Both the position numbers and the translations under genes were made by a program. Below the pieces are notes generated by a model that saw only the letters and a list, made by a program, of their open reading frames with translations, was not told the origin of the DNA and searched no databases. DNA of 64,000 nucleotides from Cliona cf. orientalis (Eukaryota; Porifera; Demospongiae; Clionaida; Clionaidae): NCBI GenBank assembly GCA_963930775.1, contig OZ005702.1:4650001-4714000 (forward strand). Direction: 5' to 3'. Numbering within the stretch: the stretch's first letter is position 1; every line of letters begins with the position of its first letter. Below are positions 4,218 to 19,388 of this stretch, piece by piece.

Positions 4218-5561
4218 ATGAATTAAATTGCTGCCAAAACTGTCTGCCATCTATTGCACCCGACTCTTTCATTAATATCAGAACACATAACATATTATTG
4301 TCATTAAACCTTCACTATTGTATCTGCATGATACACAGTATATTGCCTCTATAGCTATAATACTCTTGTATTTATGGTGGGAAAACTTCGAGGGAGAAAA
4401 CTTTTTGTGCATCAGTAGGAAGTGAGCATTAAAAAATTTCGTAAACTTTTAGTACTAAATCACATAATATAGCTGGGTATGGACGCGCCAATATTTACAT
4501 TAATTTTGTGGGTAGCTCTCAAAACACAAAATTAACTTATGAAAATTTTCTCAAAAGAATTCCGCTATACAGTATAGTTTCCATACAAAGTGCTGTATTA
4601 TTGCAGACAACAACGTCAATATATATGTGTTGTGTTTGGGTGTATTGATGCACACACATAAATAATCATTATACTGCCACAATATTTTAGTTGAAGGCAT
4701 TTGTTGAACAGCAAGACGCTAATGGCAAGATTGATGACTCCTACAATGCAATGGTGGCTGATAGAGATGAAGTTAGTAGAATAATAAGAGAGGGGAATAA
4801 CAGACTCACAAATGTCGTCATAATACTTCAAGTAACATTTGTTATTTTCGTGGTCACACTAACAGTTGCAGTACTCTCATTGCGGAGATTTACCAATTTC
4901 ACAAAGAAAAGGTGCAACAGTAAAAAAACGTGATAGTTATAAAAATATCCAGCAGCAATCAACGGTCATTAGTATTTCAATCATAACCTTCCACATTCTG
5001 ATTTACATACTAATGTTGGATGGTGTGGCTCTATACAATCGACAGAATCCTCCAGACCCTGAGATAAGTGCCATCTATCGGAACGAAGAGCCTGGTGATC
5101 CTTTTTCGGTTTTCTACAATCTACCTCTCCTAATAATAACATTCGATGCTGCAGTGACGATATTTTCCTTCATGATGTTGTTCATTGCCTCGCTCTGCTG
5201 CAGTTTTCGATATTTCAAACCTGAGATGGATTTCGGCAAAAATTGGGTCTTGTTCTTGCAATAGTCTGCTGTTGGACTGATTCTCGTTCTCCTGATGCAT
5301 GCACCTTTCATAAGTAACGCCTACCTAAACGATGCATTCCATGCTAGCAGTGTATTTATCTACTATTCTGCCGCAATAATGATTGGATTCCTACTACTCA
5401 AAAAAGTAACAATACACACTTGCTTGAGCTCAGTGTGGCAAGCTAAACACGCCAAATGGGAAAAAGCTATGAAAGATACCAAAATAACCCTATGTCAGAG
5501 TACACTCACGGTTAAGAAAAACAGAGGATCTGGGAATGCACAAACAGTCCAGCTGCAGCTA

Positions 5562-6263: not shown

Positions 6264-7333
6264 TAGCAGGAGGGAATTTGATTTTAGCCTGTGATAAAGC
6301 TATTCTTGTGAGAAAGCAGTTCATTGGGGATCACATCAAAGTAAAGGAAGGCCAGCTTATCTTAAGGAACAACAAAGCCAATTTTAAGAGTACAGATTCC
6401 ACTGATTCAGAAGAACTGTACATTGAGAAAGGTAGCCTTCAAGTGAAGCATGCACAGTGGTCCCATAGTGATGAAGAAGCTGGCAGTACTATTGATGTTG
6501 AGCCCGGCACAAAAATAAAGTTAGCTAAAGGAGAAATATTGAAAGTATCTTACGAAGAAGTCAATGGTGAATGTCGGCTTCTTCTCAAGGAAGGTAAACT
6601 GGTTGGGAAAGAACCAAGGTGCATGTGCTGCACTAAGTGCCTCAGTTCAATACCCGGAGCTGCTACCTGTTTCATTTCGGCTACGATAATGATGATTCTT
6701 CTCTTTCTCTCTCTTCTTGGAGTACTGGCCTTCTACTTTATTCTCATTCCAATCAACATGTCGATCAGCAATGCAGCCGATCGATTGGTTGGGATCTATC
6801 GAGCTTCTTTGTCGTAATAGGGGCACTCTTTGCCTATAAGACCTTGTTCAAGTCACCTGAACCTAGTGGAATTGAAGAAGCACTGAAAGAGAGAAAGAAG
6901 CCACTCACTGACCCAGAAGAGGCACAGGGAGCAAAGTGGGCTTCACTGTCCGATAAAGAGAAGCTCAATGAGTTCTATGGTATTGTGGTGGATATTGTTG
7001 CACAATATTATTACAGGAATGCTAAGCCCAGCTGCAATGAGGAAGCTTCAGAAATTGACACTATCAATGTGTAACATATACTCATTAGATAATGACTTGT
7101 ATTAGACTTACGATCGTAGTATGCACGTCAATAGAAGCTATAATTACACTTTGTCTACATAATAATTATTAGTCTGATCAGCTATATAAGTAAGACTTAC
7201 GTTTCTGATTCACTGAAAGTACTATAAATGTGAACTACGTAGCTACATCCTAATCTACTATAAGCCCAAGAATCTTTATAGTATAGTACTAAGTATTATA
7301 ATATTCATCAGCACAATTATTATTATCATAATA

Positions 7334-7550
7334 CAGTCGAACCTCCAAACAACAGGACACTTAGGGAACAATCAATTTCAGCTGTTTTGTCCCTTATAGA
7401 AAGGTTATCCTCTTCTCGGAGGTTCTCAATGAATAGAAACTATTAATAGGGAATGGTAGTCACGTTTTGCGTCCCCAAACAGTATCCTTTATAGAGAGGT
7501 TTAACATACAGTGTCCCTTCTTGAAGGGTCCTTTATTAGAGGTTCGACTG
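7334..7550. mobile_element. pogo-like MITE
   Basis: A 217-bp element with ends CAGTCGAACCTC and GAGGTTCGACTG, flanked by TA (7332-7333, 7551-7552). The internal sequence has the usual complementary gtcccttat/ataaagga segments of Tigger/pogo-derived MITEs. It is related to the inner element at 61533-62085. Confidence 0.85.
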
Positions 7551-7570
7551 TATCTAATAATAATATTATC

Positions 7571-8405
7571 ATTAACCCTCGGCGCATGCGCGAGGGTTAC
7601 TGTAGTTGGTTTGTCTGTCTGTCTGTCTGTTACCACGCTAGCTGCTACATACCTCGTTTGCTAGTCCAATTTGCGGTGTTGCAAGGTTCCTTATGACGTT
7701 CCCAATTCATGATTTGTGTGGATTTCTCCGAAAACGCTTTGTTCGCCAGTTTTGGTGTCATTTGTCGATTCTAAGCTTCTTGACTTTGCCCGAGTTAGCG
7801 CTAGCATGACTTAACGTATAAATAGGTTGCGCACTATATACGGTATATACGTCTATAACCCTCAGCGCATGCGCGATTGCATCAATCCCGCCCCTCAGTC
7901 CACCAGCGAGCTTTTGACAATCGTGGCTTCTTTTCAATTCTAAGCGGCTTAGCTGCCTGTATTCTTGTGGTACTCTTTGATTCTCTGGCTTGTATGCATG
8001 CATGGAATTACAGTGCTTGAAACCAAGTGAGTTGTGATAATATTGGACATGCAATATTGCTCAGTGTACTTCAGTCTTGTGCCAAGGCTTTGCATCATAG
8101 TCCTTCTAGTTAAGATGTAGCTAGCTAAGTCCCCAAGAATTGGACGTTAGGCTACAGTGAGGATGGTTGAGTTGACGTCGACACCACAGTGCGGAGTTCG
8201 ATACAACACGCTAGGATTGTTGCTGCTTTGAGCTGTTGAACCGTCTTGAATAACACTGCTGTGCAAGTATAACATTAGCCTCATCCCTGTCTGGCCCTGG
8301 CCCCAGCCCTTTAGCTGCCCCCTTTCTGCATGCAACTGTTGAATCCGATGTAGCTTAAATGCCATGCAGCGCGTCGAGGGTTTTGTGCTCGAGAGAGCTC
8401 TAGTT
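7571..8405 (+). mobile_element. Helentron-like non-autonomous element
   Basis: It starts attaaccctcggcgcatgcg, with a CCCTCG...CGAGGG hairpin right at the 5' end, then CTGT repeats. It ends gtcgagggttttgtgctcga followed by an AGAGCTCT hairpin and CTAGTT. The same start and end bound the copy at 50966-51637. Subterminal inverted CCTCG/CGAGG plus a 3' hairpin resemble Helitron/Helentron derivatives. The class is inferred from structure only. Confidence 0.5.
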
Positions 8406-12989: not shown

Positions 12990-15900
12990 TTACTTAAAGT
13001 TAGAGTAATCACTAAATTCATCCAGGAAATGAAGCATCAAGTCATAGATGAACTTGTATTGCTCCTAGAACAATAAACAGAATTATGGAGAGGGTATTGC
13101 AAATTGCAAGGACGTGATAGCTATGAACTTACAACAGTCTGTATGGCTCCAGGTTTTTGAATGCGGATAGCCTTGACAACCTCAAAGATGTCTACAATAC
13201 TCTCCATTTTACAAAACTCTACTGCATTCACCAGGGAGCAAAATACACACGACCGACTAACAGTGTTGCTGCATGGTGGTTTATATACACAATCATTCAA
13301 CAATACACCTACACACAACCAGCCATAGGATAACTAGCTAATTAGTCTATCAACATCTACGAATGCTTACGCCAATAGCATAATATTATTATAATTCTAG
13401 TTTTTCAAAATTTTTGTAGCCAACTCATCCTAGTAAGCGTAAGCTAGGCAATTAAGGAGTACTGTTCTGGCTTAATTCTTACTATCCATGGACCACTATA
13501 GGTTTGTTTCCTGTTCTCCTTTGCACGACAATAATATCATCCAGAACTTCAATTATAGCCCTAGGCTTGGAGTTGAGGCCCTCTGCTGTCCAGTGTCCAA
13601 CTTGATACTGGGTCACCTTATGCTTGCTCCCAGTCTAATGGGTGGACAGATACTACTATAACAGTATAATATATCAGTGATTGCATTGGGTATGTGATGC
13701 TATAGTACAAAGAGTATAGATTAGAGAATTTTGGAATAATATTATCCTATAATCTACTCTTGCTAGTACTGATAATCCTAAGCCCCATTTACACGCACCA
13801 AACAAATTTAAACTGGATTAAACCACATTTACATGTACGCACTTGACCCGGGTTAAGATATTCATAGCCCACTACTATGCACGTAACCCACTTCTAATCC
13901 ACATCAGGATGTGGGTTACAACCCCGATTAACTAATTCGGTTTACAAGTGGATTAGCATGTTTACACATAAGCCAGTTAGTTTAATGCAGATCCTAACTC
14001 GAGTCAAGCCCTATATATATGTAAACAGGGCTTTAGTCAATCATAATAATAATATTATAAAAATTAATCACTACGCACAGTATAATAATTCACGTACCTT
14101 GGCATCTAAAATACTTAATACTCTCTCCCTATATCCTTTCTCAGTTTTTTCACTCTCAGTTGTTACGGTGATCTCTTTGAAGTATTGACTGCTATTGACT
14201 TGGCGTGGCCAGTACTGAGCACACACCTCTGTGCCCTCTGCCTGGATATCCGCTAGCATCACCACCACATTACACTTCCTGTCAAGGATCATGCGCCAGA
14301 ATTCTCTAATCGTGTCTGATGTTGGGCTTTGTGCAATTATGAATCCCTTCTTCACTCTGTATCCCTATATAGTTGAGAGAAGTTAGTTAATCGATAATCG
14401 TAATTAAAAAGTAGCTTACATTGACGAATGAAGCATTAATGTAATCGGGCACCTCTCTCAGAAGGAATACTCTCCAATTATCAGCTGTAGTGGATGATTG
14501 ATACCATACATTCAATGCAAGAGTTCATCTATTTTAAGTCATGCAGTAGCTCCATCTCTGCCTAGTGTTTGTTGAAGCAAATGTATTAGCCATTAGGGGG
14601 GGTCTCCTGCCATCAGAAAATTTGCAGACGTTTTTTTTTCTCCAATACCATACGGAGGATATGCAAGGGAAAATATAGCTACCATTCACGGTAATCCTCT
14701 CAATGAGTTCTTTCTAAAGAACACCTTTTCAAAACAAGTGGGGTAAATAACTTTATTTTCAGATTTTTTCCTGTACCCCCCATAAATGAAAATTCAATGT
14801 CATATTATCGTAGTACTTGGAAAAATAGACACTTTGGTGCAAGTTTCACGTCCGTAGTGGGTGTAGAAGCTGAGATATTGATGTCCTAGAACACCAAAGA
14901 AATTGAAAAAGTCCATTTCTAGGACATCAATATTATCTCAGCTTCTACACCCCCTACGGACGTGATTATTATTAGTATTATGCACCCAATACATTTATAC
15001 ATTCAGTGTGTATACAAAAATCTTGCCATAATTATGCTATTGCCACTGCAATAATGTAATTGATTTGATCAGCTCCAATTTTTAAAGATAACTTAAAGAT
15101 TACGTACGTGGTAGGTAATTTTCACTCCTGTTTTTTCGTTGATTTTGCTGAGCAACTGTACACATCACTTCATCTGGCTTTGGTGAAACCTGCTCCAACA
15201 CCTAAAGAAAAAGGGAACTACCAATGACCTCAGTTTTCAAGGCTTAAACTAACTTCAAACTGAGTTTCGTATCCACTCTTCCCAGTCTGTCTATTAATTT
15301 TGTTGAGATTATCCATAGCTGTGCTAAAACCTGATGCCATTATCCGGGTTTTCCCACAGATAAGAAATTCCAAAACAGCATCATGAATCAACATGTACTG
15401 ATCCTGGAACAACAATAAAAATCTTGCTACAGAACACTGAATTTATGCAGCAGGAAACTAAATTTGAAATTGCTTACAGTAGTCTGGACCATTTTCATTC
15501 GCTGTTCTCTCATCTTAGTGACCACTGCTGGGACATCAATGATGCCTTCCGTTGATGCTTGACTGAGGATCATGTCAATACCAATGAGGGTACCCGTTCT
15601 GCCAACGCCAGCACTGCATGCACACAGATAGGCAGGTATATAGGTGATAACTTATAATATTATTATACTATGCCAGCAAAGGTTTGGGGACTATACATGG
15701 ATATTTGTACAATGAATTTACGAACATTAAATTTTGAGCACTAATAATATTTAGGGCACGTAAGCATAGTGCTAGCTCGGAGGAGGTACAAAGTCATTAC
15801 ATTCGACGTGATTCTTGTAGTTACATACCAATGTGCATCACTAAGGGTATGTCCAAACAGATGTGGGTAGGAACATACAGTCATACAATGTTATACCTGC

Positions 15901-18900
15901 AGTGAACAAGAAGAGGACGATTTTCTTGAGAGTGCTTCATTTTTATATGCTTCAGGAACAAGAGGATGGGGCCAGCATACTCAGGAACGCCATGATCCGG
16001 CCATGCAGTGTAGTGATACTGGACTACTTTCCATGGCGGTTTATCTTCACCAAGTACCTACACAGAAATTAAATGCAGGCAAGAATAATGTTATTACCGT
16101 AGAATCTTATAATCACATAACTACGCCACTCCCCCCCTGCATGCACGTAAGCCTGCACTTTTACCTCAAGTTTGTACATAGGTAGCTAGTTTATAGTCTC
16201 GTATATAAGCTACACACCCCCGTATACAGTATCCGTGAAGTAAAGCTAGTGGTTGCGAAGTTTACCTTCAGTTCCATATATCGAACAGTGTAATCAGCAA
16301 AAACTTGCTGAGTGGTCAATTTAATGATGAAAGGTTCCACCTCCTTCTCTTCATTAAGCACATCAGGCCAGTAAACTTCACACTTGTTCATACACCTTTC
16401 CACAGTGTTGGTCACCATTGCTATAGTTGACACCTTCTCCTGCCAAACCATGTGCCAGAAATCAACAACAGTCTGAGGAAGGGGACCTGTGTAGAAAAAT
16501 TCAATAACCTATTATTATAATATAGCTACCTATACAAAGTTAATGTTTAGCCTACCTTGACTTGCGATATATTTCTTAGCTGTTTTGTGTCCCTATTATA
16601 GGTGCATGAAAATTGGATGACAAGAGATGAATTCATTGAATCCCAAGCTTATGCAGGGCCCAGTCATGCTCAAAATTAATATCCAGCCATAAATTATTAC
16701 TACTTATTACCTCACATTACTATAATAATTGAAAGCAGAGGCTTCCCCAATCCACTTGATCAGAGTGGGAGTAATTGCTCATATGCACTGGTACAAAGAT
16801 GCAACGGCATAACACATAATAATTATTATGTAGAGCCTTGACCATTGCAGGCTCCTATAATAATTATTATTAATTTTATTATTATACTTGTAGCTACTAG
16901 AGTATTCAAAAACGGTATTTTGTGTATGCACAATCTGTAATGTCGCTGTGCGAGGATACACAATCTTATCCATTATTGGTATTCAAACCACTTCTGTGAG
17001 AATCACATGATATAAAATTAATGTATGTACACTTAATTACTTACATCTATGTAAGAGGCATTGATGTACTCGTTTTGATTTCCTGAATATCCTGGCATTG
17101 ACCTGAGAACTATTCGATTGTGATCATCTATACATTAGATACCAAAGTCATTATCAGTATCATACACGCATACTAGCTAGTGGCTATATACAACGTACAT
17201 GCTGTGATATTTCTGAATCGATTCAGTAGCTGATTGGATCCTGTTCTTCCAACTAGAAAGAATTTTCCACTTTCACAACTATCTAGTGCCTACATAATAA
17301 TATGTATAGCCACTATAATACATACTCTAAACATTACATTACATGAAATTGTAAAAACATAATATTACGATGTTAAGTGAATAATATTGTACCACATTTG
17401 CCACATAATGCATTAAGAGTTAGTAGAGTGTGATTTAATTTACCTGATATTGGTTGATGAATCCTTTGTTGTTCAAAGCATGCATTCTGGCAACATATTC
17501 TCCAAAGTCTTCTCGTTTTACTGCATTAGTCTTAATGTGTGCATTTTCAAGAACACTGTCTTCCTTTGTGCCACGAATATCATCAGAAGACTGAGAGACA
17601 GTGAGATTGATGTGACCTTTAGTCCTCCCAACAGTATTGCTGATCTCAATTCCATATCTGAAAATTGCCATCAATACACAAGACTAGTAGCTATAATATC
17701 ATTATTATTTCCCACCCGACTAGCCCCCCTGCATGAAAGAGTTTTTAAAAGATGTCCACCGCACAGTAACAATAATAAAATTAAAGCTATTGTTGCCTGC
17801 TGTACCTAATAGAGTTACTTCAGTGTCCTACTTATGGCATACAAGGAAGTGAATGTATAACTTTTAGAACAATACAAGTATACACTATAGACAATGAAAT
17901 CGGTAATGGTCATTGTCTCCACATGATTACAGCATGCATTGCACATCATTAAATATAGTTATGACATTGTTACAATGTACCTTCCAGCATGTCTTTGTTC
18001 TACACACACAATCACTAGAGAGCCATCAGCACTGAGTTCCACTGATGGATCCTCAGTAATCGGTCTTCCTTTGAATGTCCAAGCCACTGTAGGCTGAGGA
18101 CTTCCACTGAAGCTCAGTCGAAGTGTCACCTGCTGGCCGATGTTGGCATGCATCTCACTGCTTACACTTGTGATCTGAGGCTTCAACAATTTTATATCAG
18201 TGCCTAAGAATTGATATCCGATGTTAGCATGTCGTAAATTGCAATTGTTAGTTGGCTTCTGTTTCTGGTCTTTGACTCTCAAAGGACCATGTATATGCAG
18301 GTGGGCAATAAATCAGCTAGCATCATACCACCAATAATAATATCATGCATAGTAAGCCAAATACATGCACTCACTTGGAACGCTATATATGTTTTATCAT
18401 GCTGGAAAGTAGCTACCAAAGTGCATGAGGACATGCAGGGGATCAGAAACAGGAGCACAATTTGAAATGGCCTTAAGGAGTGTCTGAGTCAGTAGCTTAC
18501 GATTTTCAAAGACTGAGCTCCGCATTGACATTCTCCTTATGGTGCTGCTTTCAAACGCATCGTTGGAAGTGATTACATATCTTCGTTCATGACTGACAGT
18601 AATTGGATTGTATGCCGATATATCTTCCCTCCTTGCTGGGTTAAATGTTCTCCGCTTTCTGTAACCATGCATGTAGTACACAACAGAGTCATCAGCATAA
18701 TATCACACTATTACTGATCAAATTTCACCAACCTACTCCTTCTTGCAAGACAGAGGAACAGGGTTAGTCCTGCTACAAGCACAACGAGGAGTACAGTTCC
18801 TAATAGTACTACTGGTGTTATTAGAACAAGTCTATCTTGTACTGTCCCTGCAGCGAAGCAAATGCTGTTACAGAATATAGCTATTAATCAATAATTGACA

Positions 18901-19388
18901 AGTACCTTCTCTAACATCAGTAATTGTAGAAGTAGTAATTGTAGTAGTAGTAAAATGCCCTATATTTTCAGTTGTGGGAGTATCACTGGTCACGACTGGT
19001 GATTCTGTAGGATCTGGACTGCTCTGTGTAGTAACTGTTGTAGATTGAGTGTCATATAGAGTTGTAGATGATGGATTCTGGGTTGAACATTCTATTAGGA
19101 ACATTAAAATAATACATTTAAAGTGCCCTTCTACAATCTGCTAAACTATGGATACACTGAGGATGAGGATACAGTTAGCATGCCAGCTATTATTATTATT
19201 AGCATACTACTCTTATTGATAGTGGCATAAAATTTGTTTGTGTAAGATGTCCTATATTATTCTGATATTAATCATAATAGTTTTGACATTGTACCTTCTT
19301 TGGCACCGTTGCAGTTAGGCTTCTGTCCCACTGTTATCGGTAGAGTAGAGCATAGAATCCATACCAGATGCAGCCACAGAACGATCAT
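12990..19388 (-). CDS. Receptor-type protein tyrosine phosphatase (19 exons, ~913 aa)
   Basis: Exons, 5' to 3': 19388-19295, 19091-18906, 18847-18733, 18658-18417, 18203-17981, 17657-17444, 17289-17199, 17127-17045, 16592-16556, 16486-16266, 16057-15897, 15613-15478, 15403-15254, 15201-15108, 14484-14420, 14364-14098, 13634-13483, 13268-13133, 13064-12990. All phases agree and all use GT/AG. Product order: signal peptide ([13 protein letters not shown]), Ser/Thr-rich mucin-like segment (~32-93), membrane segment (~101-124), basic juxtamembrane stretch, an I-set Ig-like domain (~213-300, [10 protein letters not shown]...), catalytic D1 (~335-650) and D2 (~660-905). D1 has [25 protein letters not shown] (Asp ~523) and the full [11 protein letters not shown] loop (Cys ~555), so it should be active. 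D2 has DYINASFVN but HGYNTVSRS in place of the Cys loop and WTAEG in place of WPDHG, so it should be inactive. The Ig-like domain lies on the cytoplasmic side. Substrates are unknown. The start is divergent from the gene at 19812. Confidence 0.9.
14847..14967. repeat. Near-perfect hairpin in an RPTP intron
   Basis: Arms cacgtccgtagtgggtgtag with agctgagatattgatgtcct and their complements are separated by about 30 bp. It lies in the intron between exons at 15108 and 14484, so the transcript can fold into a long stem. Confidence 0.8.

Follow-up and report, generated by a model that had tools for sequence, protein, structure and literature searches.

The Ig domains of receptor phosphatases (RPTPs) are placed outside the cell in a review (PMC7959691), and PMC5336234 reports one R3-type RPTP (PTPRB/J/O family) in the sponge Amphimedon. 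R3-type RPTPs resemble the gene reported here in being single-pass receptor phosphatases and differ from it in their FN3-only ectodomain and single PTP domain, with no cytoplasmic Ig mentioned in those parts of the source (PMC5336234). The LAR-type receptors (R2A; PTPRF/PTPRS/PTPRD), characterized by an Ig plus FN3 ectodomain, share with our gene the tandem D1-D2 arrangement, and the RPTP N-terminal helix and D1 of our gene match PTPRF D1 (226 bits). In our gene, however, the Ig comes after the membrane segment, and the ectodomain, which contains no recognised adhesive domain, is not of the Ig plus FN3 kind. Inside the cell, titin, myosin-binding protein C and MLCK carry their I-set domains in the cytosol; the Ig described below resembles them in its I-set fold by profile, and titin and myosin-binding protein C also match it in sequence. 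These three are cytoskeletal or kinase proteins rather than receptors in the membrane, and none of them is known to be linked to a PTP domain. The tail of integrin beta4 carries cytosolic FN3 repeats, which have an Ig-like sandwich fold and form a docking site for plectin; it differs from our gene in using FN3 rather than Ig and in not being known to have an enzyme domain.

Here we analysed a 64,000-nt stretch of the Cliona cf. orientalis genome (GCA_963930775.1, contig OZ005702.1, 4,650,001-4,714,000, forward strand), referred to below as the window. It contains an RPTP gene that departs from the extracellular placement of RPTP Ig domains, with its Ig encoded after the membrane segment. The predicted architecture, an RPTP with an Ig between the membrane segment and D1, is almost certainly correct, and on the sequence evidence it is a real RPTP variant that has expanded in this genome. 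The sequence-only reading from which we started knew of no such architecture among described RPTPs, and our search of open-licence PMC papers likewise found no description of an RPTP with a cytoplasmic Ig.

Exon structure of the window gene

Thirteen exons on the minus strand (19388-15254), joined by hand from the genomic sequence, yielded a stop-free frame of 1869 nt. The borders are GT-AG throughout, exon 1 having a donor only, and the phases fit, as the sequence-only reading had stated. Its placement of the membrane exon (18847-18733) before the Ig exons (18203-17981 and 17657-17444) was also correct, as were the coordinates. The parts of the gene are as follows.

19295-19388, minus strand: exon 1, start codon and signal peptide (open frame, GT donor, phase 1 end, hydrophobic stretch with KD 2.02)
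18906-19091, minus strand: exon 2, short Ser/Thr-rich ectodomain (spliced open frame)
18733-18847, minus strand: exon 3, 115 nt, single membrane segment with phase 2 end (KD 2.88, splice borders)
18501-18658, minus strand: exon 4, 158 nt, polybasic juxtamembrane stretch and linker (spliced frame, like exon in paralogs)
17981-18203, minus strand: exon 5, I-set Ig up to the tyrosine corner, B-strand position without Cys (Pfam I-set)
17444-17657, minus strand: exon 6, last Ig strands, linker of ~24 aa and RPTP N-terminal (wedge) helix (spliced frame, F-strand position Ile)
17289-17199, 17127-17045, 16592-16556, 16486-16266, 16057-15897, 15613-15478 and 15403-15254, minus strand: exons 7-13, catalytic D1 (spliced frame, Pfam, WPDHGVP)
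15201-15108, 14364-14098, 13622-13483, 13268-13133 and 13064-12990 (stop), minus strand: D2 exons, partial model with a total span of 12990-15201

At least one further D2 exon lies near 14500-14420, a position that is approximate. In order, the 13-exon protein consists of a signal peptide, the short Ser/Thr-rich ectodomain, the membrane segment, the polybasic exon, the I-set Ig, the RPTP N-terminal helix and D1. The mucin-like Pfam matches of the exon 2 ectodomain were weak and below threshold. Hydropathy and K/R counts indicated a signal peptide and, ahead of D1, a single membrane segment, and the same topology check put the Ig after the membrane segment, on the cytosolic side, where the sequence-only reading had expected it. 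In an intron of the gene, at 14846-14965, two 32-nt arms spaced 56 nt apart form an inverted repeat with 97% complementarity, perhaps a small hairpin-forming element.

Ig and phosphatase domains of the window gene

Exons 5 and 6 joined matched Pfam I-set with an E value of 2.1e-16 and 60.2 bits (cut-off 23.7) over profile positions 1-90 of 90. In the joined protein the match covered residues 193-279 (E 1.2e-14), which upheld the earlier assignment of an Ig-like domain and showed its residue range, ~213-300, to be slightly off. The core Trp lies in VAWTFKG, and the two disulfide positions are occupied, as claimed, by Leu in the B strand (LRLSFSG) and Ile in the F strand (RYGIEIS). PDB matches of this Ig were led by titin, followed by contactins, Robo and DSCAM, with myosin-binding protein C among many others; this ranking favours chains with many Ig domains and fails to distinguish cytosolic from extracellular relatives. 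AlphaFold applied to exon 5 alone, which is part of the domain, gave a model with a mean pLDDT of 54.9 that was not usable. Two N-x-T motifs, INLT within the Ig and NRT in the linker before it, appear neutral or mildly against a cytosolic side. With the Ig exon as query no relatives were found in viral contigs, and with alignment A1 as query none were found in GTDB genomes; NCBIfam profiles gave no match to the two Ig-bearing proteins compared with them.

The Y_phosphatase (Pfam) domain occupies residues 350-585 of the joined protein (E 1.7e-77). Classical PTPs are marked by the WPD loop and the HCxxGxxR signature, and both are intact in D1 (WPDHGVP and HCSAGVGR). D2 (13622-13133) lacks the WPD loop and the catalytic Cys; it is very likely inactive, because VVHG-Y-NTVSRSC replaces the HCSAGVGR of D1. 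The corresponding D2 stretch reads HCSDTVTRSG in several paralogs of contig C15. When D1 was ranked against PDB sequences, the top five entries were PTPRF and PTPRS, with scores summed over two PTP domains, and single-domain scores were higher for PTPRG (237 bits) and PTPRK (233) than for PTPRF D1 (226). On these grounds we do not call D1 closest to LAR. Judged by its sequence, D1 is a typical RPTP domain that is not specifically LAR-like, and we assign it no RPTP subtype because the top PDB scores add two PTP domains.

A paralog family with the same order of parts

Searching the genome (216.8 Mb, 149 contigs) with the Ig exon returned 69 matches at E <= 1. The best 30 of these, L003-L032, formed the family set, in which L003 is the window gene; among the other 39 we read L047, L055, L057, L058 and several controls. 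A hydrophobic segment (mean KD >= 2.5) was present upstream of the Ig exon within 700 bp at 26 of the 30 loci and within 1500 bp at all 30, where L010 and L011 have one segment in common and the L029 segment sits at the margin of the analysed stretch. In the random control, run for 700 bp only, 7.7% of 600 one-strand stretches of the window contained such a segment.

Reading by eye revealed a phase-2 membrane exon followed by a polybasic exon at L012, L013 and L021 (C15), L004 and L007 (C4) and L030 (C8). A script returned stop-free candidates at 29/30 loci (none at L009), each a phase-2 join into a stretch where three or more of 10 residues are K/R. This count is generous because the script looked for precisely such joins; some of its picks, including that for the window, use a donor differing from the one in the 13-exon model. 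At the 28 loci counted, 0-2 K/R were found in the 12 residues ahead of the membrane segment, and the polybasic stretch came after it. By the positive-inside rule, this distribution points to a cytosolic location of the Ig across the family.

Based on the 150 listed of 186 PTP matches, a same-strand PTP match started no more than 3.5 kb downstream of the Ig at 28/30 loci, the exceptions being L022 (5.2 kb) and L031 (none). One open frame ran from the Ig through the linker to the RPTP N-terminal helix at 19 of the 30 loci (L012-L028, L030 and L032), for example ...GVYKAVAANSHGSEEREIKLMVNEETG...SRPIPIPEFGKYVTELHSNSNQPFKDLYQ; at the other 11, including the window, the Ig or the link between Ig and wedge was split by an intron or broken. 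Such a single frame leaves no room for a second membrane segment and thus puts the Ig and the enzyme on the same side. A second membrane segment after the Ig, which the sequence-only reading had itself named as an objection, lost ground with these 19 loci and was rejected, the only downstream hydrophobic stretches (L016 and L022) coming after the wedge.

The order of membrane segment, Ig and PTP recurred at loci on six other contigs. We estimate from sequence that about 27 further loci share the architecture (the 30 matches less the window and L031, with L010/L011 counted as one), some of them probably as damaged copies. Among the damaged-looking copies, the reading frame of L005 shifts on the way from the last strand of the Ig to the wedge, the exon following the Ig is inverted in L009, and L031 is truncated and without a PTP domain. 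At L010/L011 (C4:1993368 and 1994163), two tandem Ig exons, each followed by wedge sequence, precede the same listed PTP matches, representing either a receptor with two inside Ig domains or a partial duplication. Tandem arrays of these RPTPs occupy C15:7940000-8060000 and C4:1918000-1997000, with near-identical Ig cores within an array.

The ectodomains vary where they were read: Ig-type in L048 (C15), FN3 in L059 (C4) and Ser/Thr-rich in the window gene. In L048, exons ahead of the membrane segment encode Ig-like domains with both Cys, one above the Pfam cut-off and two below it. Among the 150 listed PTP matches, 83 (42 position clusters) have their start outside the 6.5 kb that follow a family Ig downstream. 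These 83 include L055 and a few matches that are probably D2 parts of family genes (for example C15:7964606 and C15:7879134). An inside Ig therefore need not be present in all phosphatases of this genome, and the share that would carry one is uncertain from these matches. As a separate observation, contig C16 contains two arrays of papain-type protease matches (190354-197654 and 4848102-4863163), in which each match spans nearly the full family profile within a single open frame.

Missing cysteines and the divergent receptor L055

Cys was absent from the B-strand disulfide position in all 30 family Ig domains (L, V, M, I or P instead) and from the F-strand position in all 28 that were readable there (I, F, A or L), a count that leaves out L031, which was not read that far, and L009 with its inverted following exon. 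As controls we used 20 I-set domains from the same genome outside the family, chosen near the top of the Pfam list and not strictly in order; 19 of them contain both Cys, and L064 has the second only. Loss of both Cys as a genome-wide habit was rejected on the strength of these 20 controls. Two Ig domains of L081 (C15:7393000-7394100, with an Ig at C15:7393749), read as a candidate for a further case, each have the second disulfide Cys without the first. Absence of a single Cys is not peculiar to the family, because L064 and both L081 domains also lack the first. At the position that we take to be the tyrosine corner, His was read by eye in 28/30 family domains, compared to Asp in 17/20 controls. 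In a tree of 13/30 family Ig domains, 17/20 controls and 3 ectodomain Ig domains, from which L055 was left out, the family fell on one side of a branch with 99/97 support.

L055 (C15:7862500-7872499), which lies outside the 30-locus set, showed the same order of parts in a more divergent form. Its ectodomain contains one FN3 above the cut-off, together with an Ig and two further FN3 matches below it, a likeness to the LAR type. The membrane segment at 4640 (hydropathy 3.85, phase 2 end) is followed by a polybasic stretch, a putatively cytoplasmic Ig at about 5054-5308 (Pfam I-set, E 2.1e-16), the wedge HPPIQVGEFTEKIALLRANDDEGLEDEYS and D1 (parts 6906-8210) with WPDHGVP, and the exon junctions also read open. 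This Ig retains the first Cys, has Val at the second position and carries Asp at the tyrosine corner. The combination hints at, but does not prove, an inside Ig that predates the expansion and lost its Cys stepwise.

Alternative explanations

The best explanation overall, to which we give a probability of about 0.6, is a single-pass RPTP whose only Ig would be cytosolic and serve for docking or spacing. The proposal of the sequence-only reading, an Ig on the reducing side next to the catalytic domain, remains the best one, with paralogs carrying the same order of parts. It is rather unlikely, in our judgement, that the Ig is instead a passive spacer or an evolutionary leftover without a partner, multiplied as a by-product of the tandem expansion. 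On C15 the tandem copies are near-identical, so that hitch-hiking could explain their retention, and nothing in the analysis points to a partner for the Ig. However, the Ig has been kept across divergent groups (the window, C4, C15, C3, C8, C12 and C16; dN up to about 0.8), and the His at the tyrosine corner (28/30) also speaks against a domain carried along passively. So does the low pN/pS, which was 0.14-0.44 in the 9/45 representative pairs with dS < 1. This comparison used the 66-codon Ig core of ten representatives, with L030 and L031 excluded; in the remaining 36/45 pairs dS was above 1.3 or without bound, pairs with the window gene being saturated or nearly so.

Far less probable is alternative splicing that skips exons 3 and 4 and sends the Ig and PTP domains into the secretory pathway, with the Ig working outside. 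The two exons form a symmetric 1-1 pair by phase, and their joint removal (115 + 158 = 273 nt) would keep the frame. Skipping of the membrane exon by itself (115 nt), one of the events that the sequence-only reading had named as an objection to its proposal, shifts the frame, which weakened that objection. Joint skipping would leave the phosphatase outside as well, together with an Ig lacking the disulfide Cys that 19/20 control I-set domains have, and the upstream membrane segment is kept at 30/30 loci. An artefact of the hand-joined gene model, with the membrane exon part of a different gene and an extracellular Ig encoded by a transcript extended upstream, is least probable of all, given the same order on six other contigs, the phases checked by eye at six paralogous loci on three contigs, the 19 loci with Ig and wedge in one open frame and no membrane segment between them, and the likewise open junctions of L055.

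Proposed role and implications

In the favoured reading, a single-pass RPTP would carry its only Ig on the cytosolic side, flanked by the membrane-proximal polybasic stretch and by the wedge of D1, and variable ectodomains would supply the outside signal. Because the cytosol is reducing, the Ig would be expected to fold there without a disulfide. It may bind a putative cytoplasmic partner, either cytoskeletal or another Ig, and docking or spacing by the Ig may set the position of D1 and the clustering of the receptor. For the docking role itself, we consider the odds to be somewhat in its favour.

A more detailed history is also conceivable, although we regard it as doubtful and rate it slightly below the passive-spacer account. 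An ancestral RPTP with an Ig/FN3 ectodomain would have gained an I-set exon after the membrane segment, lost the Cys stepwise through an L055-like stage and come to be shared, as a cytosolic core, by about 28 receptors whose ectodomains (Ig, FN3 or mucin-like) are interchangeable. The inside Ig domains would associate with one another or with a common partner inside the cell, either an Ig or a cytoskeletal protein, pooling outside recognition on one adaptor. The odds are lower because D1 is not specifically LAR-like and because one-Cys loss occurs elsewhere in the genome.

If the favoured reading is true, an RPTP class with an inside Ig would offer a novel means of positioning or clustering the enzyme, and an adhesion module would have been reused in the cytosol. 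Genes combining Ig and PTP domains in such genomes may be miscalled as LAR-like receptors with an extracellular Ig, because domain lists alone hide whether the Ig comes before or after the membrane segment. The expansion of these receptors beside variable ectodomains makes them candidates for a diversified recognition system with one common inside core.
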